From positions 1 through 24,286 of the IMG/VR virus record IMGVR_UViG_3300025138_000343: a stretch of DNA of 24,286 nt; one strand, written 5' to 3'. How positions within the stretch are numbered: the first letter of the stretch is position 1; the number at the start of each line of letters is the position of its first letter. Below are positions 2,602 to 24,286 of this stretch, piece by piece. This DNA comes from a virus. The position numbers were made by a program, and so were the translations under genes. The notes below the pieces were generated by a model that saw only the letters and a program-made list of their open reading frames with translations, ran no database searches and was not told the origin of the DNA.

Positions 2602-3387
2602 CTAAGGATAACTTTTCATCACACTACTTCCTACTGAAAATAGTTCGACAGGAGTGATGTCATTATTTGATAATGTAAATTCCATATAGTATCCTCTAGC
2701 TCCATAAGATTCTGCTAAGGTGTTGTTGACAAATAAAACAAAATCTCCTTGAACCGCTGGTGTTGGCGCAGGCGGTCCCGCTGGAATAGTTTCGTTTACA
2801 GTAATAGTCCCTGCAGCTCTATCTATACCTGTGATAGTTCCTGCTATTATAGGAGTTCCTCCTGGTACTAAAACATATAATGCTGCTCCAATACTTACAA
2901 TATTTCCAATTGCAGCACCAATTGGTAAAACTCTTGCTGTTGCTGTTCCTGTTGGTAGCCCAACAGTTCCTAAACCATTTGCATAACGTAAAGCAAAATC
3001 TGTTTGCCCTACACGATGTCTAATGTATGCGTACCATTCTCCTTCTTTTTGTTCAAAATTTAATTCATCAATATCTCCTAGACTTAAATCGGTAGTTAAT
3101 GCAGTACAATCCCAAGCCGCATTACTTTCAAAAGATAAAGTTTTAAAAAGTTTAATCGACAAAGTTGGCTCAGGGTTAAAAACACTTGTTACATAAGAAG
3201 GATTAGTACTACCGTCTTGACCATAATATTCATTCCTATTATCGTTTGTGTTATGACGGTAAAGGTTACCTCCATCAAAAGTATAGAGGTAAGCGTTCAT
3301 ACCAATTATATATTCAGGGAAAAATCCATAAAACGAAGGCCATCCTTCGCTGTCTGAGTTGTATGTTAAAGTATAATTTGTTGCCAT
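2602..3387 (-). CDS. Tail structural protein, beta-rich
   Basis: This 261-residue protein opens with LTYNSDSEGWPSFYGFFPEY, then IIGMNAYLYTFDGGNLYRHN (residues 7-46). That 'GW.SF..F.PE..IGMN..LYTF..GNLYRHN' pattern I recall from tail or stabilisation proteins of Bacteroidota and marine phages. The middle (about 100-135) is acidic and aromatic. The stretch 150-222 is a Gly/Ile/Val-rich beta module (GTITGIDRAAGTITV, then GDFVLFVNN). The C-terminus (YGARGYYMEFTLSN to VMKSYP) is again beta-rich. It starts 4 bases after the 523-residue gene, so it is part of the tail operon, and it ends in TAG, unlike the TAA stops I checked elsewhere. In related phages this block may be fused to the stabilisation protein; here it is a separate gene. 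Its exact place in the tail is not shown. Confidence 0.6.
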   Translation of the reverse strand: MATNYTLTYNSDSEGWPSFYGFFPEYIIGMNAYLYTFDGGNLYRHNTNDNRNEYYGQDGSTNPSYVTSVFNPEPTLSIKLFKTLSFESNAAWDCTALTTDLSLGDIDELNFEQKEGEWYAYIRHRVGQTDFALRYANGLGTVGLPTGTATARVLPIGAAIGNIVSIGAALYVLVPGGTPIIAGTITGIDRAAGTITVNETIPAGPPAPTPAVQGDFVLFVNNTLAESYGARGYYMEFTLSNNDITPVELFSVGSSVMKSYP

Positions 3388-3391
3388 ATTT

Positions 3392-4963
3392 TTATATTAT
3401 TACACATGAACCTCCACTACATTCTGCTAATGAAAGTATTGCGTTATTACTATCTAATTGCATTTGTCTAAATGTTCCTACGCTAGTAGTAGTAGAAACT
3501 TCAGCATAAGCATACCATCCAGCTCCTAGTGTAGCACCCGCAATAACATCTCCTAATGTAACACTAAGATAACTGTGGTTGTTTGTTGTTCCTACAGTTG
3601 TTCCAATTGTATAATTATTACTACAAAATGTAGCACATCCTAATTGAGGTGAGCCACTTATAAAGAAAGTTGTGGTTGGTGGAGTACAACTAGAAACAAG
3701 TATTACTGTTCCTGTACCACCTACCTGTATGTAATTAGCATCTCCCGAACCATCTTGATATAAATAGTAATAACCTTGACTTAGCTGGAAGTTTCCAGAA
3801 GCATCGCTATACACAGAATCTCCTAAGCTTGGATAAATTCCGCCTGGTCCTTGACCAGCACCACCATGATAATATGTTTGATTTAGAGCTGGAGCTGCAC
3901 CTCCATTACATATAGCTCCGAAATTTTTAGTAGAACTACTTGTGTAAGACGTATATCCGCCACCTCCAGAAGAGCATGCTGCACTACTGACTACCACACC
4001 ATTTCTAATTCCTAAAGATGTAGTGTTTGCTACTATAATATATTGTAAAGTATTTGTGTCATTTAAATAAGTAGCTCCGTTAGCGTCAGTAAAAACAAAG
4101 TTTCCAACTTCTGGAACTGTATTAGTATCTATAGTAAATGGTGTACTATTTCCTGAAGCATTTCTTGCAAAATAGTAAGTTACATTAGCTGAAGTACAAA
4201 CATCGGTAGCTTGTAAAGCAGAACCTTGAAAATTAGGTAAATCTTCAGGACACGCCAATTCAAAAGCAAAAAATGTTCCTGTCATAGGAGCAAAAGTTTC
4301 GACTTTTACTAATGTAGTATTAGCATCTGTCTTAGGAATTACCATAGTAAAGACAGGGCTTGAAGGAGTTGAGGTGTCACTAGCATATCCCACTTGGTTA
4401 TTAACTACATTTATACTTCTAGTATTTCCAGTATCTACATAAGCTCCACCTGATAAATTAAATTCAGGTACGCTAAAATAACTTCCTACAAGTAAATCGT
4501 TTTGATTTCCTACGTAAGTTGGTAAAGTTGTAACATTATTTATACCAGCGTAATCCACAGTGGATTGAGCTCCGTCAATTAATGTAACTGTACCATGATT
4601 GTTTTTGGAAGTCATTCTATTGTGTGTCACGTTGTTAAAAGTAGCTAACACTCCATCAGGGACACTACTGCCCATGTAAAAATAAACCACAACAGCTCCT
4701 ATGCTATTTGCAACGTCTATATCAGCATTATAATAACCTGGTTGACTAGCGTTACTGGCACTTATTCCGCTACCACAGGCAACCGCGCATGATGTGCAAG
4801 ATTGTGCGTTTAACAATAGACCCCCTGTTTGTTGTCTAACTATACCATTTTGAGCGTAAAATCCATCTGGAGCTAACGTAGTAAGGGCTGCATCTGAGTA
4901 CAAGGCTGTTGCACTAGAAAAATTTATTCCATCAAAATAATATGTATTATAAGTTGCTGCCAT
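3392..4963 (-). CDS. Modular tail adhesin-like protein with four Cys-ended aromatic modules
   Basis: The 523-residue protein is rich in Thr, Ser, Asn, Gly and Tyr with few charges, typical of tail fibre or adhesin surfaces. It is built of modules: residues 5-56, 256-330, 351-426 and 431-515 each start with a TYYF- or TFFI-like strand, carry a VYSD/FTD-like strand and an aromatic GYYY-like strand, and end in a Cys. Between the first and second modules, residues 60-250 form a separate domain with VGAVVVYFYMGSSVPDG-type strands and FTMVIPKTD, a pattern I recall from marine phage tail proteins. The gene directly abuts the stop of the 1602-residue protein, whose own C-terminus carries the same module. 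This suggests that the two lie together at the tail tip and bind a surface receptor, which is inference. No enzymatic motif and no signal peptide are seen. Confidence 0.65.
   Translation of the reverse strand: MAATYNTYYFDGINFSSATALYSDAALTTLAPDGFYAQNGIVRQQTGGLLLNAQSCTSCAVACGSGISASNASQPGYYNADIDVANSIGAVVVYFYMGSSVPDGVLATFNNVTHNRMTSKNNHGTVTLIDGAQSTVDYAGINNVTTLPTYVGNQNDLLVGSYFSVPEFNLSGGAYVDTGNTRSINVVNNQVGYASDTSTPSSPVFTMVIPKTDANTTLVKVETFAPMTGTFFAFELACPEDLPNFQGSALQATDVCTSANVTYYFARNASGNSTPFTIDTNTVPEVGNFVFTDANGATYLNDTNTLQYIIVANTTSLGIRNGVVVSSAACSSGGGGYTSYTSSSTKNFGAICNGGAAPALNQTYYHGGAGQGPGGIYPSLGDSVYSDASGNFQLSQGYYYLYQDGSGDANYIQVGGTGTVILVSSCTPPTTTFFISGSPQLGCATFCSNNYTIGTTVGTTNNHSYLSVTLGDVIAGATLGAGWYAYAEVSTTTSVGTFRQMQLDSNNAILSLAECSGGSCVII
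3419..3673 (-). repeat. Cys-ended aromatic module, copy 4 in the 523-residue protein
   Basis: Residues 431-515 begin TTFFISGSPQLGC, include GAGWYAYAEV and MQLDSNNAI, and end in AEC. This is the longest and most divergent copy, placed right after copy 3. Confidence 0.45.
3686..3913 (-). repeat. Cys-ended aromatic module, copy 3 in the 523-residue protein
   Basis: Residues 351-426 run from ICNGG through TYYHGG, LGDSVYSDASG, GYYYLYQDGSG and YIQVGG to VSSC. It is the copy closest to the C-terminus of the fibre-like protein at 23234, which has GDTVYTTQTG, YYYLYSAGG and YIQVINGIV in the same order. Confidence 0.6.
3974..4198 (-). repeat. Cys-ended aromatic module, copy 2 in the 523-residue protein
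   Basis: Residues 256-330 run from C through VTYYFARNASG, GNFVFTDANGATYL, LQYIIVAN and GIRNGVVVSSAAC. The same order of strands and the terminal Cys are kept, but the spacing is longer. Confidence 0.5.
4796..4951 (-). repeat. Cys-ended aromatic module, copy 1 in the 523-residue protein
   Basis: Residues 5-56 read NTYYFDGINF, TALYSDAALTTLAPDGFYA, NGIVRQQTGG and end in QSC. This is the shortest copy and sits at the very N-terminus, directly after the matching copy that ends the 1602-residue protein. Confidence 0.55.
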
Positions 4964-7900
4964 CTAACATGTTGTTTTTTCAATTACTAATCCAAATTGA
5001 TTTACTCTAATATACTCATTTCCTGTTATTTTATAAAACCCTGCCGTTAATGTATTTACATTTTGACCAGGAGCGTTACCTGCACATTGAGCATCACTAT
5101 ACACTATATCATACAATGCTAGACCACCGCTTGATGCATAATAAAATGTTTGCGTAAGTGGTTGTTGACACGCTGTGTTTCTTGTAGTTTGTCTTGTGCT
5201 TGCGCTAAAAGAATTACAAGGTATTACACAATCACAACAAGCTTCTGATGCCGAAGTAGAATAACATAATTTTTGTGCTGATGTAAATCTAAAATCATAT
5301 ATTAAATATAAATATTGATTTGCATTAGGCAATGTAAATGGAGGTGTAGTAGCTGGACCAACAGTTGCTTGTCGTATTTCCGTTCCTGTAGGATTGCTAA
5401 CCGAAGCATTTGGTATTTCTGCTGCAGCCGCAAGTAAAGCCGCTACATCTGCTGTTGTATTTCCATATAAAGTACTTGACGATAAAAATTTAAAATTATC
5501 ATTTGGATATTTAAAATTATAATCATCTGTAGCTAATTTATTAATTCTCATATTTAATGAAGAACCATCGTAAGGATAAACTCCTTGTGAGCGTACTCCT
5601 GTTTGACTTTCAAAAAAGCTAAATAGTAAATCATTTGACCCCATAGTAATTTGGTCTGTATCAATAGGGCTAATAGTTGTGGTGTCTGTCCATCCATATT
5701 CAACGTGAATTAAGCTTCCACTATCAATATTGGAATTAATTACGCATTTAAAAACAGTTATTAATTGTTCTGGAACACAATTAGGTGTTACAGCAAATGA
5801 AGCTTTACCAGAAGGAGTAACTGTTACTACAGCTGTTGTTGGTGATGTTAAAGTTTTAGCAACTGTAACACTTCCATCTGTTGTTACATTTCCTGAACTT
5901 ACCGTATTATTATTCCACTTAACTGAAACATCTATTGTCCCAGAAGTAACTATATAATCTACTACAATATTACCAATAGTTTCACCAAATTCTAAAGTAT
6001 ATGTAACAACGTCTGATGAATCTATGGTCTGAAATTCAGCACCACACTGATAAACCACAGGTGGTACAGGAACTTTGACATCATTAGTCGATAATACATA
6101 TTCATCCATGTAAGGGTCATATCCACCTAGCTTTTGAGTTTGTAATGCTAATTGAAAGTTATCTCTAAACCAAGAACGCATACCCATATCTGATATAACT
6201 TGCAGTTGGTCGTTTTGACTGTTTCCAATAAGTTTTATTACAGCTACACGTTTAGTGTCAGTAAAATAATAACTATCTCCATACGCACCAAAACTTTCAG
6301 GATTAAAGCTTATACCATATTCCTCAGTACGAGCAATTTGTGTTCCTAATATTGTTGGGGAAGATATTATAGCTCCTCCACCAGTAGCGTCACTAATTAA
6401 ATTTTTAGATGCTAAGACATAACTAATTTTATCTTCTTGTAAAGTTAAAATGTCTGTTTCTCTTGCATATAATTTTTGTATAGGACCAAAACTTGTTTCA
6501 AGTTCTTTAAAATTAGCAAGTCCTAAATTAAATTCATTTAAATTATTAACACCTGCATTACTACTAAATATTCCACTATAAGTAAGGTCTGCAAATCTGT
6601 GAGCTTCTTTAAAATCTTGTTGAGAAACAGCCAGTACTCTTTGTCCCATAGTTAAAGCTCTACCAGCAAAGTCATCATTTATTTTAAAACTTTCAACACC
6701 ATTACCAAAAGTAAAACAATCTATAAAAGGTAGTGTTACAATTGCTGGGCTTGAAGTAGTTTGGTCTTGGTCAGTTGCATCGCCACCTGACATGTGTAAA
6801 TAATTGCCAGTAGCTACATCTTTCTTTACAACGTATGAATCTGAAGCATCGTAAAAAATATCTTCACTAGCATCTAAAGGTTCTGTTTCAAATGTAATTA
6901 ATGTGTTTGCTCGTGTTACAGTAATTTCAGCTTTAACGTTGATATTTCTTCTTCTTCTTATAGGTTGAAAACCTGCACACCCTGGTTTTTTAGTTTTTAT
7001 TCCTAATCCTAATTTAGAATCTACATCTCCAGGAGCGTCTTGTAAGAATTGGAATATTACAGAATTATCTGAAATAGATTCACCACTATTTGAAGTACAC
7101 TCTACACTGCCTACGCCAGCACTATAACTACCAACTGCAGTTTTATACACTACATCAAAGTCTCCACCTTCACCTTCAATAGTCCCTGGCGATGCGGTCC
7201 CTGGATTTATGTTATCTCCAACCCACCATCTTCTAAAATCTGGATAATCTTGAGAAGAATATAACACTTGTTTCCATTCCCATCTCATTCCTTCACAACT
7301 ACTACTTCTTCCGTTTCTATAAACCTCTATATTAAATTCTATTGCAGAACCTGCAGGTATTGTATAATTGTCAGTGTCACTAGGAGTTGCTGAATCAGGA
7401 GTTACAAAAAGAGGATAGTTAACACCACCTCTACATCTTCCGTCATCTCCCGTAGATTCATAGCTTTTTCTACCCGCTTCTATTGTAGAATCGTCAGGAA
7501 TATTTACATTAAAACTTTGTGGTTTTATTTCCATATATAACCCAGGCAATTGAGCAGTATCTACACCCATACCTTGTGAATCATTAAGAAAGTCTCTTGC
7601 TTGTGCTTGTACATTTAAAACTTTTGCTTTTACAACAGTACTTACAAATCCACTTACATCCGTTTTAACTATTAAAGTATCTCCTGTTTTTACTTTATTT
7701 TGATTGTCACCTTCTAACTTAAAATAAGTTACTTGTGATGTTTGAACTGTATAATAAAAATTAGAAAATATAGTTTCGTAATTTGCTTTACTTGGCTTTA
7801 CTACAAACTTATATCTTTCTGCCCATGAAGGAGCAAAATTATTTACGGTAGCTTTTATTTGATTTACATTTATACTATTTGCAGCAGAAACACTAACTGT

Positions 7901-13461: not shown

Positions 13462-14934
13462 TTATGAATTTTGGAATAAGAAGAAGTTGTTTGCTCCTAA
13501 GACACAAACTGCTCTTTCAGTTAAAAAATTAACTTCCATAGCATCTAAATCAGAAGTTCTTGCACCACCAGCAGAACCAGTAATCCAAGTTTTATATCTT
13601 CTATCTTCAGCTTCTGAAGCTCTATACCTTACATGTAAGAATGGTCTTTTAGCGTTTTTACCAAGTATTTGGTCATAAACCGAAGTAGAACCAGCTGGAA
13701 CTAATAGTCCATTGATACCACCTGCTACTAATCCACCTCTCATTGTAGGGTCATTTAGATACTTCCAGTCAGACTTGTAAAAGTCATAACCTCTTCTAAA
13801 TCCAGAGAAACCTAAGTTAAGTGCCATTTCTTCATCATTGTCAAAAAGACCGTATGATGTACCGCCACCCCCGTAAGAGTTTTGTGTAGACAACATATCG
13901 TCTATATCAAATGAGAAGTTTCTATTTACGAAAATTACATTTTCTTCAATAGCACCTTGCTTATCTAGTCTTTGAATTATATTATCAAAGTCAGCTAATG
14001 ATGTTGGGTTACCGCCACCAAAAACGTTTCCTCTGTTTCCAACTACGTAGAATACACCTTGAGAACCACTTAATCCAGCTACTGAATTACCAGCTCCAGT
14101 ACCTTGGAGATAATCTCCTGCACCTGACGCTGCTTCTGCTGGAACCGCTTCAATCATAGCTGTTTCCATGTAATCTTCAAATCTTAATCTTGTGTCGTGT
14201 TCAGATTTTAGATACCATAAGTATCCGTTTACTCCGTCTTCTCCACTTACTTCTACCCATCCAATTTGAGCCATGTCAGAACCAGATACTGAGTATTTAT
14301 CTTTTATGATAATTGGTTTATTATCAAAAAATAAATCATCAGATTCTAAAGAACCATCCATACCGTCTGTTCCTTTTGCAAATTCAGAACCATAGATAAA
14401 GATGTCACAGGCTACTGCGCCCATTGCTTGTCCTCCTGCTTCATAATAAGATACTGTAAAGGTATTAGGATTTGCATCCGTTGGACCTGCTGTTACAATA
14501 GCTTTGTTTTGAAGGTTAGAACCAGGTGTGTTATCTGAAATCATTAATGTTTGTCCTACTCTAAGAACATTTTTTGCATCTCTAGCTGTATTGGGGTTAG
14601 CCAATGCAGGGTTAAAGTTTGCTATGTTGTTAGGAATTGTCCAAACCGCTCCAGCGTCTGTACCTGCAGCTGCTGCTGAAGTACATCCTTTGTATTTGAT
14701 GTGTAATCTTCCTTGTTCTGCCCATTTGATAAGGTCAGAATTAGAAGGCATTTCTGCTCCTACCATACGTAGGAACGAACTAATGCTTCTGTTACCATAT
14801 CTTTCAAATTCTTTCTCGTAAGTATCGGGTAGATACTGGTTCAAGAAATCAAAATCTTTGATATAATTCGTTGCAACAGGAACCTGTTGCGCTGAAGGTT
14901 GTAAGTCGAAGCCAGGGGCTGTGTTTACTGCCAT
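13462..14934 (-). CDS. Major capsid protein (HK97-fold expected, crAss-like)
   Basis: The 490-residue protein is the expected size for a crAss-like major capsid protein and sits in the expected order after portal and scaffold. The N-terminal part has KDFDFLNQYLPDTYEKEFER, then NRSISSFLRMVGAEMPSNSD and KWAEQGRLH (about residues 26-78), a pattern that I recall from this family. The body alternates Gly/Asn-rich loops with acidic and aromatic strands, including VFGGGNPTSLADFDNIIQRL and GYDFYKSDWKYLNDPTMRGG. The C-terminus (HVRYRASEAEDRRYKTWITG, then NFFLFQNS) is compact. No obvious processing site is seen, so a delta domain is not evident. The start context is AATTATGGCAG, without a Shine-Dalgarno sequence, 20 bases after the scaffold-like gene. 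A stable hairpin follows the gene. The HK97 fold is an expectation from the family, not read from the sequence. Confidence 0.75.
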   Translation of the reverse strand: MAVNTAPGFDLQPSAQQVPVATNYIKDFDFLNQYLPDTYEKEFERYGNRSISSFLRMVGAEMPSNSDLIKWAEQGRLHIKYKGCTSAAAAGTDAGAVWTIPNNIANFNPALANPNTARDAKNVLRVGQTLMISDNTPGSNLQNKAIVTAGPTDANPNTFTVSYYEAGGQAMGAVACDIFIYGSEFAKGTDGMDGSLESDDLFFDNKPIIIKDKYSVSGSDMAQIGWVEVSGEDGVNGYLWYLKSEHDTRLRFEDYMETAMIEAVPAEAASGAGDYLQGTGAGNSVAGLSGSQGVFYVVGNRGNVFGGGNPTSLADFDNIIQRLDKQGAIEENVIFVNRNFSFDIDDMLSTQNSYGGGGTSYGLFDNDEEMALNLGFSGFRRGYDFYKSDWKYLNDPTMRGGLVAGGINGLLVPAGSTSVYDQILGKNAKRPFLHVRYRASEAEDRRYKTWITGSAGGARTSDLDAMEVNFLTERAVCVLGANNFFLFQNS

Positions 14935-16128: not shown

Positions 16129-16665
16129 TTAAGCGTTCTTTAGATGATTATAAAGACTCTCGCCTAACTCTTCTCCTACTTTTTTGTCAGATTCATAATG
16201 AACTCTGGCTGCAATTCTACTTTTTGAAATATGATTAGCTGCGGTAATAAATTCATTATGCATCTCAGGATATAAATCTGATAACATTAATGCAACTAAT
16301 TTAGCCTGAGCAGAATGCCCAGACGGAAATGAAGGTGTTTGTGCACTTTTCATTTTATGATAACGAAAATTAAGACTTAAATAATTAGCAACAACATTTG
16401 GTCTTTGCCTGTTATGATAATTTTTTATACTTAATATGATAGGTTCTGAATGTGTTAGTAAATCTTTTACTAATTTTTTAGGATACTTTCGTGTTCTATT
16501 TCTAAAAAGATTTTTAAAAACATTTACAATGTTATCATAAGTGTCTGCATAGTCTGTGTCTAATGGACCTGCCTGAAGTGTTTTTATTTCACTTAAAGTT
16601 TTCAGACTATGATTTGGGGGTACAACAATTCTCTTAAATTTTTCTATACTAAAATTACTAAACAT
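16129..16665 (-). CDS. PAP2-superfamily phosphatase (class A acid phosphatase type), soluble
   Basis: The 178-residue protein carries all three PAP2 motifs in order with correct spacing: K81-x6-R88-P89 (KNYHNRQRP), P114-S-G-H117 (FPSGHSAQ) and S149-R150-x5-H156-x3-D160 (SRIAARVHYESD). The catalytic His of motif 3 and the His of motif 2 are both present, so the enzyme is probably active on phosphate monoesters. There are no clear membrane spans and no signal peptide, unlike many lipid phosphatases, so a soluble or virion-bound enzyme is likely. The gene lies 5 bases after the portal stop, inside the packaging and head block. Its substrate is unknown: lipid phosphate, polyphosphate, nucleotides or a haloperoxidase-like reaction are all possible for this superfamily. 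It may act during DNA delivery or on host phosphate metabolism, which is inference. Confidence 0.88.
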   Translation of the reverse strand: MFSNFSIEKFKRIVVPPNHSLKTLSEIKTLQAGPLDTDYADTYDNIVNVFKNLFRNRTRKYPKKLVKDLLTHSEPIILSIKNYHNRQRPNVVANYLSLNFRYHKMKSAQTPSFPSGHSAQAKLVALMLSDLYPEMHNEFITAANHISKSRIAARVHYESDKKVGEELGESLYNHLKNA

Positions 16666-16670
16666 ATTGT

Positions 16671-19106
16671 TTATTTAGGTCCAAACTCTGACAAATCAAA
16701 ACCATCTAAAGAATCCTCATTTGATTCAAAAGACATAGCTGGTAAATTTCTTTTACGTTGTTCAATTAATTGTGATTGCTGAGAGTTAGCTTGACTAATT
16801 CTTTCAGACTTTCCTTTTTCTTTAGATTTTTCTCTCATATCAATTTGAGATTGTTCAATCCCTTTTAATTGCATATTATAAGAAAACTCTGTTTCCATTA
16901 ATTGAGCTTTTAACATAGCTTCGTTTTTCATCTTTTCAATCTCCATTGCAATCTCTGCTTGTTTAATTTGCATTGTAGATTGCATTTCAGCTGCTATTCT
17001 TTGTTGTTCAGCTTGTGCAACCATCATTTGTTGTTCTTGTTGCATTTGTGCTGCAGCTTGTTGTTGCTGCATTTGAGCTTGTTGTTCTGCTTGAGCTTTA
17101 CGTTTACGTTTTGTTTTTAGTAATTGATTAGCCATTTTAAGATTATGAATCTCTCTAATGTCTAATGCATCTTCTAAGTTTATATCGTTTTTAGATAAAG
17201 CCATCTGAATATTTTGTTCTAACATAGCTCTTTGTTCTTCGTCAGGAGCTAGTTCTAAAAATATTCCAAAGTCGTATAGATAGAAGTTTTTAATATCTTC
17301 TAATAAATTTAAATTATATTTTCCAATTTGCATTGCAAACTGGTCTGCAAAAGGAGAGTATTCTAAAACATCTGCAGTTCTTAACACAATACCTTCTGCC
17401 ATTCTTTTAGTAATAAATAAACTTGCTAATAAAATATGACGAGTTGCGGTATTAGAGCTTAATGCTGCTAATTTTTGAACTCCAACTAATGCGTCTGGAT
17501 TTGGAGACGTTCCATCTCTTGCTTCGTTTAAACCAGTTACTGTTCTAATCATATCTAAATAATGATTATAGTTCTGAATTAACATTTGCATTTTTGCTCC
17601 TCCACTATTGGATGTTAACTGAGTTATAGGAACTTTAGCATTATTAAATTCTCCGTCTTGAGTAAAACTTCTCCCTATAACACTACCTGTTTGAAAATAT
17701 AAACGCAATGCGTCTTCAGGATTATAAGCATTACCAGTACCTAAGTCTACTTCATTAAGTCCATCAGCGTCAATAAAAACACCATCTGGAACCATACGAG
17801 ATATAACTTGCTGTAATTTTAAATGAGTAACTTGAATTAAATCTGCAAAAGGAATCATTCTACGAACTAAAGATTCATAAGTTCCTTTATACATTCTTGG
17901 TGCGCATGCTACGTAATTAGGAAGGGCGTGTTGACTTGCTGATTTGGGTCTTACCATGTTTTCGGCTAACTCCCATTTCAATATCATGTTTGTTCCCATT
18001 ACCATAATTCCGTCATACCATACTTCTATTTTCTTTTCTACTCTTTCAAATTTACCTTCTGCCATCATTTCTTCTGGCGGATTAAATTGGTCGTCTTTAG
18101 CTACAACTTTAAAGGAGCCATCTGGCATTTCTTTTTTCTTGTAAACAAAAGTATGAGTAGTTTTATAATTGTAATAAAGAAGCGTGCAAGTATCTCTATA
18201 AAACAAAGAGTTTTCGTAGAACTGAGAATTATTATAGTAATTATACCACGATTGACTAGAAGCAGCAATTTCTTCCATTTGCTCGTTAGTAATATCAGGA
18301 TTTATCTTTACTAATTCTGCCATTGGGATAGTTTTAATTTCTCCCCAATAAAAACAATCTTTAAAGTAAGGGTCTTCAGTATAACTGTATACCACATTAG
18401 CTGGGTCTACATAATCTAATTGAATACCTTGTCCTGGTAAAAACTGATGTTTAGACATTCCAACTCCTAAAGTCATTATATCATAATCAACTCTTTTTCT
18501 AATATCCGCATAATGGTTTTGTTGTAATACAGTGTCTATAGCTTGTTCTGCTGCAATTTCTACAGCTGGCTTATATTTCATTTGCATATACAACTCTAGT
18601 TCTTCATCGCTTTCTGGAAGCTCCTCTTCATTTGTTTGAAAAACATTTAATTTAAAATCTTCTTCTATTTGTTGGAACAATGGTCTAGCAACCATTTCTC
18701 CCTCTATTCTTTTTTGAAAACTATCTCGTTTTTCTGCAGACATAGCATCTTCTGCAAATGCATTTACCTTAAACAACCTATCGTTTAAACCATTTACAAC
18801 AATGTCTACAAATTTTGGAATAATAGGAACAGGAGTCCAATCTAAATTTAAGTAAGACAAATCTCCGTCTACTGCAATTTCGTTTTTATATTTTTGAACA
18901 GACTGCTCTCCACGAGCATATAGTCTTAACCGATTAAACTCTCCCCATTGATTGAGGAACCTACATGAGCCGCTATCTTTTCTAAACCATTCGTATTGAA
19001 TCGACTGTCCGACTTGGAGTCCATACTCCATTGTGTCTTTTTGCGCGTCCGAAGCAAATTCGTTAGGAAATGCAGCTGCTTTTAAGTTAATATTTACGTC
19101 TTTCAT
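16671..19106 (-). CDS. Portal protein, crAss-like, with Gln-rich coiled-coil barrel
   Basis: The 811-residue protein is the length of a large crAss-like portal. The N-terminal part has QSIQYEWFRKDSGSCRFLNQ, then EFNRLRLYARGEQSVQKYKN and VPIIPKFVDIVVNGLNDRLF (about residues 35-112), the 'W...R.YARG.Q....YK' to 'IPK..D...N....R' order that I recall from this family. The middle (about 205-560) contains the wing and stem-like parts, with DYDIMTLGVGMSKHQFLPGQ and LDYVDPANVVYSYTEDPYFK. From about 660 to the end the protein is a long helical, Gln- and Met-rich coiled coil (QAQMQQQQAAAQMQQEQQMM), suited to a barrel. The ATG overlaps the terminase stop as ATGA, so the two are translationally coupled. 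It forms the ring at one head vertex through which DNA enters and leaves. Confidence 0.85.
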   Translation of the reverse strand: MKDVNINLKAAAFPNEFASDAQKDTMEYGLQVGQSIQYEWFRKDSGSCRFLNQWGEFNRLRLYARGEQSVQKYKNEIAVDGDLSYLNLDWTPVPIIPKFVDIVVNGLNDRLFKVNAFAEDAMSAEKRDSFQKRIEGEMVARPLFQQIEEDFKLNVFQTNEEELPESDEELELYMQMKYKPAVEIAAEQAIDTVLQQNHYADIRKRVDYDIMTLGVGMSKHQFLPGQGIQLDYVDPANVVYSYTEDPYFKDCFYWGEIKTIPMAELVKINPDITNEQMEEIAASSQSWYNYYNNSQFYENSLFYRDTCTLLYYNYKTTHTFVYKKKEMPDGSFKVVAKDDQFNPPEEMMAEGKFERVEKKIEVWYDGIMVMGTNMILKWELAENMVRPKSASQHALPNYVACAPRMYKGTYESLVRRMIPFADLIQVTHLKLQQVISRMVPDGVFIDADGLNEVDLGTGNAYNPEDALRLYFQTGSVIGRSFTQDGEFNNAKVPITQLTSNSGGAKMQMLIQNYNHYLDMIRTVTGLNEARDGTSPNPDALVGVQKLAALSSNTATRHILLASLFITKRMAEGIVLRTADVLEYSPFADQFAMQIGKYNLNLLEDIKNFYLYDFGIFLELAPDEEQRAMLEQNIQMALSKNDINLEDALDIREIHNLKMANQLLKTKRKRKAQAEQQAQMQQQQAAAQMQQEQQMMVAQAEQQRIAAEMQSTMQIKQAEIAMEIEKMKNEAMLKAQLMETEFSYNMQLKGIEQSQIDMREKSKEKGKSERISQANSQQSQLIEQRKRNLPAMSFESNEDSLDGFDLSEFGPK

Positions 19107-21352
19107 GAATTAATAATTCGACTAACTTTATCGCTGTTATTATATCTTGCAAAGTTAATGCTTATTTTTGTTTTTTCTTTGGTCGGTGTATACAAGTGTT
19201 TTTGATTAGCCATTACAGCTAAACCTGAACTTATAGAAGCATCAAACTTGGTTCTGTTGTTAATATCAAACTTTGCCCAGTCTTCTAATGTACGTTGAAA
19301 ATATGTATCTCCCATATCACCTTCTGTTCTATATACTCCATCTAAATCTAATCCCACATACTTTTCTATATATGATTCAATAGCTGAAGCATGAGATTGT
19401 TTTACGTCTTCAGATGTATTTGGTATTCCTCCCAATTCTCTTTCTGTTTTAGAAAGTTTGTTTAAAGATTTATCAGGTCTGTTTAAACAGAACCCTCTAT
19501 ATCCCCTGTTTTTAAAGTGATATAATAAACGAGGTTTATTATTCTCTACTAAAATAGGCATGCCATAAAAAACACACGCCATCAAAACTTCTTCAAAAAA
19601 TATCTCTGCCGTTTGAGGTCGAGCTATATATTCTAAGAAGAAATGATTACTAGGCATATCTTCTAAACTAAACTTAGTTAATCCATGTAAAGAACCGTTA
19701 GACCCTTTACCAACTACCACTCCTGAAATGTCATACGAATCACAACCAAATGACCCTAAATGCTCATTTCCAGGATAAAATCTATTTCCCTTCTTAAATA
19801 CATTGTTTTGAAGGGAATGCTTAGGTATGTAAGTTACAAAAAATCTTCCTCTTTTATTTGGAGACCATATTACTTTAGAATCTTTAATACCATCTTGCCA
19901 ACTAAATGAACCTTGCGTAATAAAATGTTCTTTTATTATACTATCATTATAATCTATTTGTTGATATAATTTAGTTAAATTAAATATAGATTGTTTACTC
20001 TCATCTCTAAACGCATGAGATTCTGTTCTAGGGAATTGTCTGTAATATTCATTTAAAGCATCAGGGTCATTTTTTAATGACACTACTTCATTTTCCCAAT
20101 AGTTTACAGCACCTTGATAAATATACTCATTATCAATTCCTTTGATTTCTTGTTCTGGAGTATCTAAAACAGGCATTCCATATAGGTCTATAAATCCTTC
20201 CATATTCCATTCCATAGGAACGAAAAGGGAATATAACCCGCTTTTAGTTTGACCGTTTGCGTTTCGCTTAGTGCAATCAGAATCATTATATAAATCCTTA
20301 AAGTTTCGTCCTCCTTTATCTAATGCATTAGAAGTAGAACCCATCATGCATTTACCAATTATTTTACTACCTAAACGTAAACAAGTTTTTGTAACACGCC
20401 AATTGTTTAATATGTTTTCAGGTCTTTCCCATTTACCACTTTCATCATGTATTAATAACTGTAGTTTTTCTCCATCATAACTGTTATCAGAAGTATTCTT
20501 CCAATCGACTGTAGTATCCAATCCTTCTAAAACATTTTCTTCTATATTAAACATGTTTTTTTTAGTAATCTTAGAAGCAGGAACACGATAAGCTAATTCT
20601 GTTTTTGGTTTATCCATACCGTCTTGTATGGGTTTAAAAAAGAAAGGATAGTTGTTTGATATAGGAACTATTTTATCAGTAAACATTTTTTTTGCATCCG
20701 CACCAGTTTTTGATAAAATACCTATACGAGCGTTTTTTGTTATAGTGCCTGTGTTTACTCCTTCGCAAGAACTCATAAATGAAAAACCTGAACGTCTTAT
20801 TTTTAAATAACACATTCCAAAACTTCTTTTATCTGCTTTACAAGCTTCCCAAAAAATATAAAAAATTCTATTTGCTTCTCTAAAATCTGGATGCCCAATA
20901 TCTATCTTGGTCCATTGCAAATACATATAGTGAGTACCTGTTAAATAGGTAGGTTTGCCATCATTATAAAACCAATACCCTTTTTCTCTTTTATTAAACT
21001 CATCTTCAATATAATCTATCCATTGATTTTTAAATGTAGAGGGCGCGTCATGCCATTGAAATATAGTGGGTATTCTTTTTAATGCAGGCGGTAATTCTTG
21101 TACCTCCCAAAACTGTTCTTCTTTTTTTTCACTACGTTTAAACGCAGTCATTGGAGCTTTGGGCAAAGCAATACGTAATCCAGAAACATGAATAACTTCA
21201 CCTATTGTGCCGTCTTTAGAAATATTAACTAAATCATATTTTTCATTATATCCATAAGACCAGGTCCTCGCTTTATTTTTTCGAGTTAATATGTTTTTAG
21301 GAATAAGTCCTTTACATATATTAAATATTCTATTTTGACCTTGATTCTGCAA
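19103..21352 (-). CDS. terL: Terminase large subunit, packaging ATPase-nuclease (crAss-like)
   Basis: The 749-residue protein carries an ATPase half and a nuclease half. The Walker A-like loop is at about 184-196 (KIRRSGFSFMSS), lacking the classical GK[ST] but of the RRxGFS type that I recall in crAss-like TerL. Walker B is at 298-304 (QLLIHDE, with D303 and the catalytic E304). The coupling motif lies near 337-348 (MMGSTSNALDKG). The RNase H-like nuclease has D538 in FGCDSYDISG, E603 in ILVENN and D704 in KFDASISSGLAVM as likely metal ligands. It powers DNA translocation into the prohead and cuts the concatemer. The start overlaps the 90-residue gene by 23 bases and the stop overlaps the portal start. 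The class of packaging (headful or other) cannot be told from this window. Confidence 0.92.
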   Translation of the reverse strand: MQNQGQNRIFNICKGLIPKNILTRKNKARTWSYGYNEKYDLVNISKDGTIGEVIHVSGLRIALPKAPMTAFKRSEKKEEQFWEVQELPPALKRIPTIFQWHDAPSTFKNQWIDYIEDEFNKREKGYWFYNDGKPTYLTGTHYMYLQWTKIDIGHPDFREANRIFYIFWEACKADKRSFGMCYLKIRRSGFSFMSSCEGVNTGTITKNARIGILSKTGADAKKMFTDKIVPISNNYPFFFKPIQDGMDKPKTELAYRVPASKITKKNMFNIEENVLEGLDTTVDWKNTSDNSYDGEKLQLLIHDESGKWERPENILNNWRVTKTCLRLGSKIIGKCMMGSTSNALDKGGRNFKDLYNDSDCTKRNANGQTKSGLYSLFVPMEWNMEGFIDLYGMPVLDTPEQEIKGIDNEYIYQGAVNYWENEVVSLKNDPDALNEYYRQFPRTESHAFRDESKQSIFNLTKLYQQIDYNDSIIKEHFITQGSFSWQDGIKDSKVIWSPNKRGRFFVTYIPKHSLQNNVFKKGNRFYPGNEHLGSFGCDSYDISGVVVGKGSNGSLHGLTKFSLEDMPSNHFFLEYIARPQTAEIFFEEVLMACVFYGMPILVENNKPRLLYHFKNRGYRGFCLNRPDKSLNKLSKTERELGGIPNTSEDVKQSHASAIESYIEKYVGLDLDGVYRTEGDMGDTYFQRTLEDWAKFDINNRTKFDASISSGLAVMANQKHLYTPTKEKTKISINFARYNNSDKVSRIINS

Positions 21353-22392: not shown

Positions 22393-22920
22393 TTAGAATG
22401 ATGTTCCCGTTGTAAGAACTCTATAAAATATATTTACATATAAATCACCAGTTCCTACTGTGGCATTTCCGTCATCTGCAACTAACACTAAAGGTTGGTT
22501 AATACCAACTGTCAATCCACCTGAGTTACCAGGTTTTGTTACAATATCAGTTGCTGAATTTATTTTAGATTGTTGTATTGCTCCAAAACTTACAGAGTCT
22601 ATTTTAAAATTAAGACCATTTGAACCAAAATCATATTGAATAGAACCTGCATCAAAATATGCTTGTATACTAATTACATCTATGATTTTTGCTGCACCAG
22701 GCGCAGGAATAATTGTTAAAGCTGTTCCTACACCTAGTAAGGCTTGATTGCTAACAGTAACTTTCGCCACCAAAGTATCTATTCCGAACAATTCCTGTAT
22801 TTGAGAAATAGTTGCGGTTTTAGTCATAAGACTATTTTCAGCGTCAGTGATTACTAAATAATCAGCTGCGTCTAAATTTTGAATACCTGGGTATGCGGAT
22901 ATGTTACTTATTTTCGCCAT
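22393..22920 (-). CDS. Fibre-like structural protein with IPAPGA domain
   Basis: The 175-residue protein has an N-terminal segment (KISNISAYPGIQNLDAADYL, then VITDAENSLMTKTATISQIQ) in the style of short tail-fibre bases that attach fibres to the virion. It is followed by a beta-rich domain from about residue 50: VAKVTVSNQALLGVG, TIIPAPGAAKIIDVI (about 69-83), QYDFGSNGLNFKI and, at the end, GTGDLYVNIFYRVL. The same domain order is seen in the incomplete gene at 23234-24286, which also has VIPAPGA and a closing WYVQIKYSI strand. The start overlaps the 89-residue gene by 17 bases. It is probably a surface-exposed fibre or head-fibre protein; the attachment site is unknown. Confidence 0.55.
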   Translation of the reverse strand: MAKISNISAYPGIQNLDAADYLVITDAENSLMTKTATISQIQELFGIDTLVAKVTVSNQALLGVGTALTIIPAPGAAKIIDVISIQAYFDAGSIQYDFGSNGLNFKIDSVSFGAIQQSKINSATDIVTKPGNSGGLTVGINQPLVLVADDGNATVGTGDLYVNIFYRVLTTGTSF

Positions 22921-23233: not shown

Positions 23234-24286
23234 TTATATCGGTGGAGAACAAATCTGCACAGTACAACCCGATTGATTAGATACTATTCCATTTATTACT
23301 TGTATATAGAATCTTGAACCTCCAGCAGAATATAAGTAATAATAAAATGAAGGAAGTAATGTTGTTCCAGTTTGTGTTGTATATACAGTATCTCCATTAC
23401 AAGGATATGATTGTTGAGCATTGCTAGAAGTGTTTACAAAGTAGAATGTATTAGCATTTGGATTACCAGGAGTTGATGTGCAAACTCCATTAAACACTGT
23501 ACCGTTAGCTGCATTAAATGCTGTTCTTCCTGCAGGAGTTTGTCCTGAACCAGTAATTGTTCTATCTACGTTGTTAGTAAATCCTGCAGTAACATTTATA
23601 ATACTATATTTTATTTGTACATACCAAGTTGCAGTAGGTAATGCACTTAAATCACTTGCGTTTCTTAATATAAGACCTCTATTTAAAAACGTGCTTTTAT
23701 CTGCACCTGATGAAGCCATTGCTCCAATACCAACTGGTCTTTCAGATTGCCAAAACCAAGTTCCAGTAGCAGCTATCACACTTGAAACAAAATTAGCTGG
23801 AAAATATGCCCAAGGCCTCCAAGACCTCTGCCCCCCTGACATATTACAAGCATTTGTAGTGCCAGAATCACAAAACCCAAAACCTAATAAACTACTCCAT
23901 CCAGTTCCTGGAGTTCCAGCACCTTTATAAACAGTAATGCTTTTTATGAAAAGAGCACTGTTCGCTCCTGGCGCAGGAATAACTGTAGTACCTACACTAT
24001 TAAGGTCATCAAACCCGCTTCCACTTATAGCTATAGTTTCTATTCTTTCATCTTCTACAAACTTACCTTCAGAACCTGCAGCAAAAGTATATTTTGGTTG
24101 ATTTTCAGCACCAGTACTTCCAAAAAATTCTCCAGCACCATAAGCACCCGCTTTAATATATTTATTATCTGGGTCAACAAAAAACTGTTGTTCATTTGCA
24201 TTAAACCCTAAAGTCTTTATAGTTCCGTTTACATCAAAAGCTGCGTTAGGTGATGTTGTTCTAAAACCAACTCTATTCTCATCTGT
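23234..24286 (-). CDS. Tail-fibre-like protein, partial, 5' end outside window
   Basis: The frame is open from the window edge to the TAA at 23236-23234 (350 visible residues, N-terminus missing). The Met at 23842 is internal: the frame upstream codes for a typical fibre sequence. Visible residues begin with ENRVGFRTTSPNAAFDVNG, the 'VG.GTTSP...DV.G' repeat common in phage tail fibres, often near chaperone domains. A charged linker with NKYIKAGAYGAGEFFGS follows, then an IPAPGA domain (about 105-255: VIPAPGANSALFIKSITVY, then LILRNASDL and WYVQIKYSI). The last 71 residues are a Cys-ended aromatic module (TFYFVNTSSN, GDTVYTTQTG, YYYLYSAGG, YIQVINGIV, QSGC). It is probably a surface fibre that binds the host. 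It is followed by a promoter box, so it seems to close an upstream transcript. Confidence 0.72.
   Translation of the reverse strand, partial: TDENRVGFRTTSPNAAFDVNGTIKTLGFNANEQQFFVDPDNKYIKAGAYGAGEFFGSTGAENQPKYTFAAGSEGKFVEDERIETIAISGSGFDDLNSVGTTVIPAPGANSALFIKSITVYKGAGTPGTGWSSLLGFGFCDSGTTNACNMSGGQRSWRPWAYFPANFVSSVIAATGTWFWQSERPVGIGAMASSGADKSTFLNRGLILRNASDLSALPTATWYVQIKYSIINVTAGFTNNVDRTITGSGQTPAGRTAFNAANGTVFNGVCTSTPGNPNANTFYFVNTSSNAQQSYPCNGDTVYTTQTGTTLLPSFYYYLYSAGGSRFYIQVINGIVSNQSGCTVQICSPPI
23237..23449 (-). repeat. Cys-ended aromatic module at the C-terminus of the fibre-like protein
   Basis: The last 71 residues share with copy 3 of the 523-residue protein the ordered blocks GD[ST]VY[ST], YYYLY, YIQV and a closing Cys. 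The two genes lie about 19 kb apart, so this is a dispersed and not a tandem copy. Confidence 0.6.

Follow-up and report, generated by a model that had tools for sequence, protein, structure and literature searches.

A Cys-bounded beta module repeated over the split muzzle and a fibre protein of a crAss-like phage, with a probable role in host recognition

The window, that is, the whole stretch of DNA analysed here, was a virus record of 24,286 bases and contained a crAss-like virion gene block on the minus strand. The gene names were assigned partly from gene order and from relatives. The tail genes belonged to the same minus-strand block as the terminase, portal and capsid genes (Table 1). 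The interval between portal and capsid held a PAP2-superfamily phosphatase-like gene (16129-16665, minus strand; PF01569, E 1.5e-11). An 'IPAPG' segment was, by eye, common to a 175-aa protein (22393-22920, minus strand) and the fibre protein, which are perhaps related fibre or decoration domains.

Table 1. Positions of the genes, domains and module copies in the window
Feature	Positions	Strand	Remarks
Muzzle C-terminal chain, 261 aa	2602..3387	(-)	Pfam PF25729 crAss_MUZ_C, E 4e-12
Inserted block, ~2.7 kb	3376..6076	(-)	present here, absent at the homologous point of phi38:1 and elemoA
Repeat gene, 523 aa	3392..4963	(-)	R1, beta-sandwich, R2, R3, R4; begins directly behind the muzzle stop codon
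R4 (candidate)	3419..3679	(-)	residues 429-515; HHalign score, strand order in the model
R3	3686..3955	(-)	profile E 9e-17
R2	3974..4237	(-)	recovered when held out; final profile E 6e-17
Beta-sandwich (jelly-roll-like)	4244..4786	(-)	residues 60-240 of the repeat protein; AlphaFold2 pLDDT mostly 77-95
R1 (variant)	4796..4963	(-)	repeat-protein residues 3-56
Muzzle N-terminal chain, 1602 aa	4964..9772	(-)	phrog_14478 (virion structural protein), E 5e-231; colinear with phi38:1 gp097 1-1077
M1	4967..5218 (core 4967-5173)	(-)	C-terminus of the muzzle N chain; profile E 1e-17
Capsid protein	13462-14934	(-)	
Portal	16671-19106	(-)	
Terminase	19103-21352	(-)	
Fibre protein, C-terminus a module	23234..24286 (5' end beyond the window)	(-)	gene upstream of terminase as in phi38:1 gp085/gp086 and L069/L070
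F1	23264..23500	(-)	profile E 5e-12; phmmer E 1e-8

The 1602-aa protein had been labelled a stabilisation protein in an earlier note on this DNA; its colinearity with gp097 of Cellulophaga phage phi38:1, and the MUZ_C gene continuing at the same point, identified it instead as the N-terminal chain of the muzzle. The phi38:1 gp097 was one chain, in which residue 1077 aligned to residue 1232 of the window muzzle and residue 1078 to residue 5 of the MUZ_C gene. Since gp097 was contiguous at 1077/1078, the segment 3376-6076 was extra in the window phage. The muzzle of Flavobacterium phage elemoA was also a single chain, and neither single-chain muzzle contained modules. The crAss_MUZ_C match (46.8 bits against a cut-off of 27) was also obtained by a six-frame search of the window, and the same search gave no match in 14 control genomes. 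Together the two genes encode a split muzzle, made as the chains N and MUZ_C.

Residues 1-1232 of the N chain (9772-6077) formed the conserved muzzle, and residues 1233-1602 were an added C-terminal part composed of a beta-sandwich domain, a Cys-rich segment and the module copy M1. The inserted block was composed of these three added elements of the first chain and of the whole repeat gene. The added beta-sandwich was located at 5768-6055 (minus strand; muzzle residues about 1240-1335), and fold searches with the muzzle C-terminus returned pre-peptidase C-terminal and carbohydrate-binding-like sandwiches.

Crassvirus muzzles, which are hexameric in the case of crAss001 gp44, are located at the tail tip and probably contact the cell; insertions into the crass and IG2 regions make them variable in length (PMC10172136). 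When compared with the single-chain crAss001 gp44, the MUZ_C chain matched residues 1201-1289 (HHalign, 93%), and the stretch just before it matched weakly. In gp44 the split point corresponded to about residue 1200, C-terminal to the IG2/crass-domain segment (318-1021; limits from PMC10172136). The muzzle of phage phi13:2 was split at the same point (gp120/gp121) with other inserts. The beta-sandwich of the repeat gene was homologous to the C-terminus of phi13:2 gp120 (E 3.5e-8) and was there a part of the muzzle chain itself, a fusion that suggests a physical place for the repeat protein in the muzzle.

The module was the building unit of copies M1 at the muzzle end, R1-R4 in the repeat gene and F1 in the fibre protein. 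It was about 65-95 residues long, Cys-bounded and predicted to be all-beta, and about 120 non-identical copies were found in related phage contigs. The motifs followed the order of an aromatic strand T-S-F-x-x-S, Cys, T-Y-Y-H-x-G, P-x-x-G-D-x-V-Y-x-D, L-x-x-G-Y-Y, Y-I-x-V, G-x-V and a closing Cys. The alignment lengthened the unit of the earlier note at its start, by about 15-20 residues that contain the aromatic strand and the first Cys. Of the 123 copies (untrimmed), 122 had the first Cys and 116 the closing one, against an overall Cys background of 1.8%, and a bond between the two is plausible. In 62 of the 123 copies the protein C-terminus was at most 4 residues away, so the modules often formed the tip.

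The repeat over the muzzle N chain, the repeat gene and the fibre protein was genuine. The likeness of R3 and F1 was already seen by single-sequence phmmer, in which R3 alone found F1. A first profile was built solely from sequences of the M1, R3 and F1 type, with R2 held out; script-computed E-values, here and below, are for a search size of 700 sequences. The held-out R2 was recovered with an E-value of 1e-4 in the window and down to 2e-6 in relatives, R1 was weakly recovered (0.005 to 0.1 in the best cases), and R4 was missed (E about 17). The final iterated profile contained 122 non-identical copies and gave M1, R2, R3 and F1 the E-values of Table 1; the best decoy among about 2750 reversed or shuffled sequences reached 0.02-0.05 after iteration. 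R1, when held out of the final profile, scored 0.008. By profile-profile comparison (HHalign), R1 was aligned end-to-end with 83% probability and a score of 30.4; the 200 column shuffles peaked at 19.6, and none of them (0/200) reached the R1 score. R4 scored 20.8 against a shuffled maximum of 18.0 (200 shuffles), with a probability of only 12-20%.

Copies M1, R2, R3 and F1 were unequivocal members of the module. R1 is a shorter, weaker relative that lacks the first Cys, and R4 is tentatively taken as a divergent candidate copy from its profile-profile score and predicted strand order. The six copies proposed in the earlier note thus comprised four clear ones, R1 that nearly reached this level, and R4 that stayed tentative. 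Recovery of all six by one profile had been proposed there as a check, in which five copies passed or nearly passed above background, with R4 again the tentative one. Its coordinates were right: position 3419 was the last Cys of R4, position ~5152 lay in the first aromatic block of M1, and the fibre copy was located within the fibre gene. The view that four copies make up most of the repeat gene was firm for R2 and R3, whereas R1 was short, R4 was tentative, and the unrelated beta-sandwich was placed between R1 and R2.

The AlphaFold2 models had a mean pLDDT of 80 for the repeat protein and 82 for the muzzle C-terminus, and the predicted copies were compared via strand order, without superposition. 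The models gave a common succession of a strand, a short helix and five strands for R3, R4 and M1, and the five strands for R2. Searches of PDB folds with both models returned generic beta-sandwiches; the matches of the repeat protein were dominated by its beta-sandwich domain (residues 60-299), and these results provided no evidence of a new module fold. The domain of residues 60-240 matched assorted beta-sandwiches with VIA-align Z values up to 8.5. A PDB sequence search gave no significant match for either protein.

Orthologues of the repeat gene were found in dozens of viral contigs (related contigs or loci are given L-numbers). They were located between muzzle N and MUZ_C where both were present, except in L008 and L009, in which the muzzle was unsplit and the module gene lay downstream. 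The order of muzzle N, one to three module genes and MUZ_C was kept in more than 30 loci, and the M1 position was occupied by a module in nearly all relatives with the window gene order. The repeat gene ranged from R1, sandwich and R2 alone up to R1, sandwich and four modules; its C-terminal module set varied between relatives, and other C-terminal domains occurred too. In L094 (4653-7182), three consecutive module genes were placed between the muzzle halves, compared with one in the window. The repeat-gene C-termini of L025, L034 and L040 carried another recurrent domain, which contained the motif Y-C-G-T, closed with a Cys and was unrelated to the module by profile.

Spread of the module by gene conversion within the phage, as supposed in the earlier note, was rejected because copies at the same position were on average 39-59% identical across phages, compared with 28% between positions in one phage. 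Stop-codon read-through from the muzzle into the repeat gene was also considered, as the two are in the same frame here, but it was rejected because the gap between them was not conserved and measured 0, 1 or 9 bases in relatives.

Beyond the muzzle, modules recurred behind fibre genes. In the L017 phage, the cassette of beta-sandwich, R2 and R3 was joined to an N-terminus whose coding sequence directly follows that of a 2083-aa S74 tail fibre, at a site resembling that of F1 in the window. One module copy was followed by an S74 chaperone-like tail. In the cultured Cellulophaga phages, the module formed the second half of 145-150-aa proteins (phi18:1 gp62, phi17:1 gp62 and phi38:1 gp086; profile E 3e-10 to 2e-5), the genes of which overlapped the preceding tail or fibre gene. 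One phage search was performed with a 64-aa consensus-like query from the alignment, and its match was later confirmed with the profile. By Foldseek, the repeat-protein model matched phi17:1 gp62 with an rmsd of 3.0 over 97 columns (probability 1.00, E 6e-3). The phi18:1 gp62 was annotated as hypothetical, and its neighbours had been seen by mass spectrometry; the literature on the module-bearing small proteins yielded no binding data, solved structure or virion proteomics. In L070 (4470-4988 and 6832-7808), reading by eye suggested a methyltransferase-like gene that follows the fibre genes, and small genes of hydroxylase- or SET-like type close to the terminase.

Among the ORFs of IMG/VR contigs carrying the N-terminal adaptor of these proteins, the module was detectable in 28 of 54 (18 strongly), and the others carried BACON, Fib_succ_major, Laminin_G_3, RCC1 and further domains. 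Maribacter phage Molly had BACON in the same slot behind the same adaptor. The module was therefore exchanged on the adaptor with BACON, Laminin-G and other domains. A profile scan of bacterial sequences returned a single contig, matched by the adaptor only, and 384 genomes, all small, from the class to which the genome of that contig belongs gave nothing; these genomes are probably not Bacteroidota.

The suggestion that one building block serves more than one virion part was borne out, as modules were found at the muzzle tip and in a distal tail-fibre gene. Both are adhesin-type positions by gene context, rather than by detection in the virion. Because the module is placed at the host-recognition sites of the tail, it is probably an interchangeable sticky domain that helps the phage grip the bacterium. 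The interchangeable terminal domains on a constant adaptor, the variable C-terminal sets, the repetition and the location at tip and fibre fit a host-recognition module, and from position, repetition and domain exchange we consider it likely that the module is a part binding the host surface. The repeat gene overall showed no consistently faster evolution than the muzzle in blast identities, which counts against this reading.

The modules might instead lengthen the tail tip as structural spacers or rigid linkers, the role supposed for bacterial BACON domains, with something else doing the binding. This would agree with the tandem arrays, which reached up to four modules, and BACON, the closest functional analogue, has been reported to link and not to bind (PMC6949934). 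However, about half of the copies end their protein and thus often form the tip, and the C-terminal set is the variable part, so that a spacer function appears unlikely. The small proteins encoded after fibre genes might instead be assembly factors that fold the preceding protein, like lambda Tfa or the S74 chaperone, and the same could then hold for the muzzle copies. This would agree with their genes lying directly behind a fibre gene with overlapping starts and with the S74 chaperone-like tail after one copy, but modules are covalently built into the muzzle chain and into tandem arrays, and the same slot is taken by BACON, Laminin-G and RCC1, none of them folding factors; we regard this role as quite improbable. 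An enzyme acting on host glycans is very improbable for the repeat gene: a relative in MW202828.1 is annotated as a putative glycosidase, but no Pfam, NCBIfam or PHROG enzyme family matched, and the PDB fold matches were generic. A composition artefact of carriers all rich in S, T, G, N and Y is hardly credible, since same-composition decoys reached only E 0.05 compared with 1e-17 for the copies, a held-out copy was recovered, and the first Cys was nearly invariant.

Under the host-recognition reading, the module would serve crAss-like and other Bacteroidota phages, mostly uncultured, as an exchangeable domain at the distal parts of the tail. In the window phage, the muzzle gene is interrupted by a DNA block downstream of its crass-domain segment, and the muzzle is made as two chains, the first of which ends in the added beta-sandwich and one module. 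The gene between the muzzle halves encodes a protein in which R1 and a beta-sandwich are followed by two or three further modules, and another module ends the tail-fibre gene. The repeat protein may assemble onto the muzzle, and the modules may face outward and attach to host-surface carbohydrate or protein. Repetition could provide avidity, the crAss001 muzzle being a hexamer, and swapping of the C-terminal modules could provide specificity. More tentatively, this undescribed domain family might be a general recognition module of Bacteroidota phages that enters the muzzle split point in the form of complete genes, each with one or several modules; the ejection gate would then carry exchangeable receptor-binding arrays, and receptor contact could trigger its opening.

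Little is known of how crAss-like phages recognize their receptors, and the muzzle probably makes contact with the cell. A widespread, unnamed module on the muzzle and fibres, present also in cultured Cellulophaga phages, is a concrete candidate for host contact, and its profile can be used to annotate many unnamed tail genes. The locus is also a case of a conserved tail-gate protein that is split, making room for exchangeable parts.

The earlier remark that no named family was known for the module held for Pfam and NCBIfam, but the unnamed PHROG_21885 (function unknown) already covers a full-length relative. This 145-aa protein has an N-terminal fibre adaptor, which the window proteins lack, and its second half is the same module as the window copies. 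PHROG_21885 was matched by 9 of 29 repeat-gene orthologues; the window repeat protein matched no PHROG at E 0.01 and hence had no full-length match to it.

The tail BACON domains of crAss-like phages are likewise small repeated beta domains proposed to bind the host surface, although the binding role of the tail-associated repeats of crAssphage is unproved (PMC6949934). The module differs from BACON in being Cys-bounded and also inserted in the muzzle, and in sequence: the BACON models PF13004 and PF19190 gave no match in the window proteins or the 29 orthologues. When compared with the crassvirus muzzle (crAss001 gp44, PF25729), the two parts of that protein correspond to the genes flanking the repeat gene; the window muzzle is composed of two chains with an inserted module gene, whereas the muzzles of phi38:1, elemoA and crAss001 (gp44) are single chains. 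In the T4-like gp38 arrangement, the distal tail-fibre adhesin is encoded behind the fibre gene. The adaptor-module proteins, for which no relation in sequence is expected, resemble it in arrangement: both have a small protein, an overlapping gene and an exchangeable distal domain.
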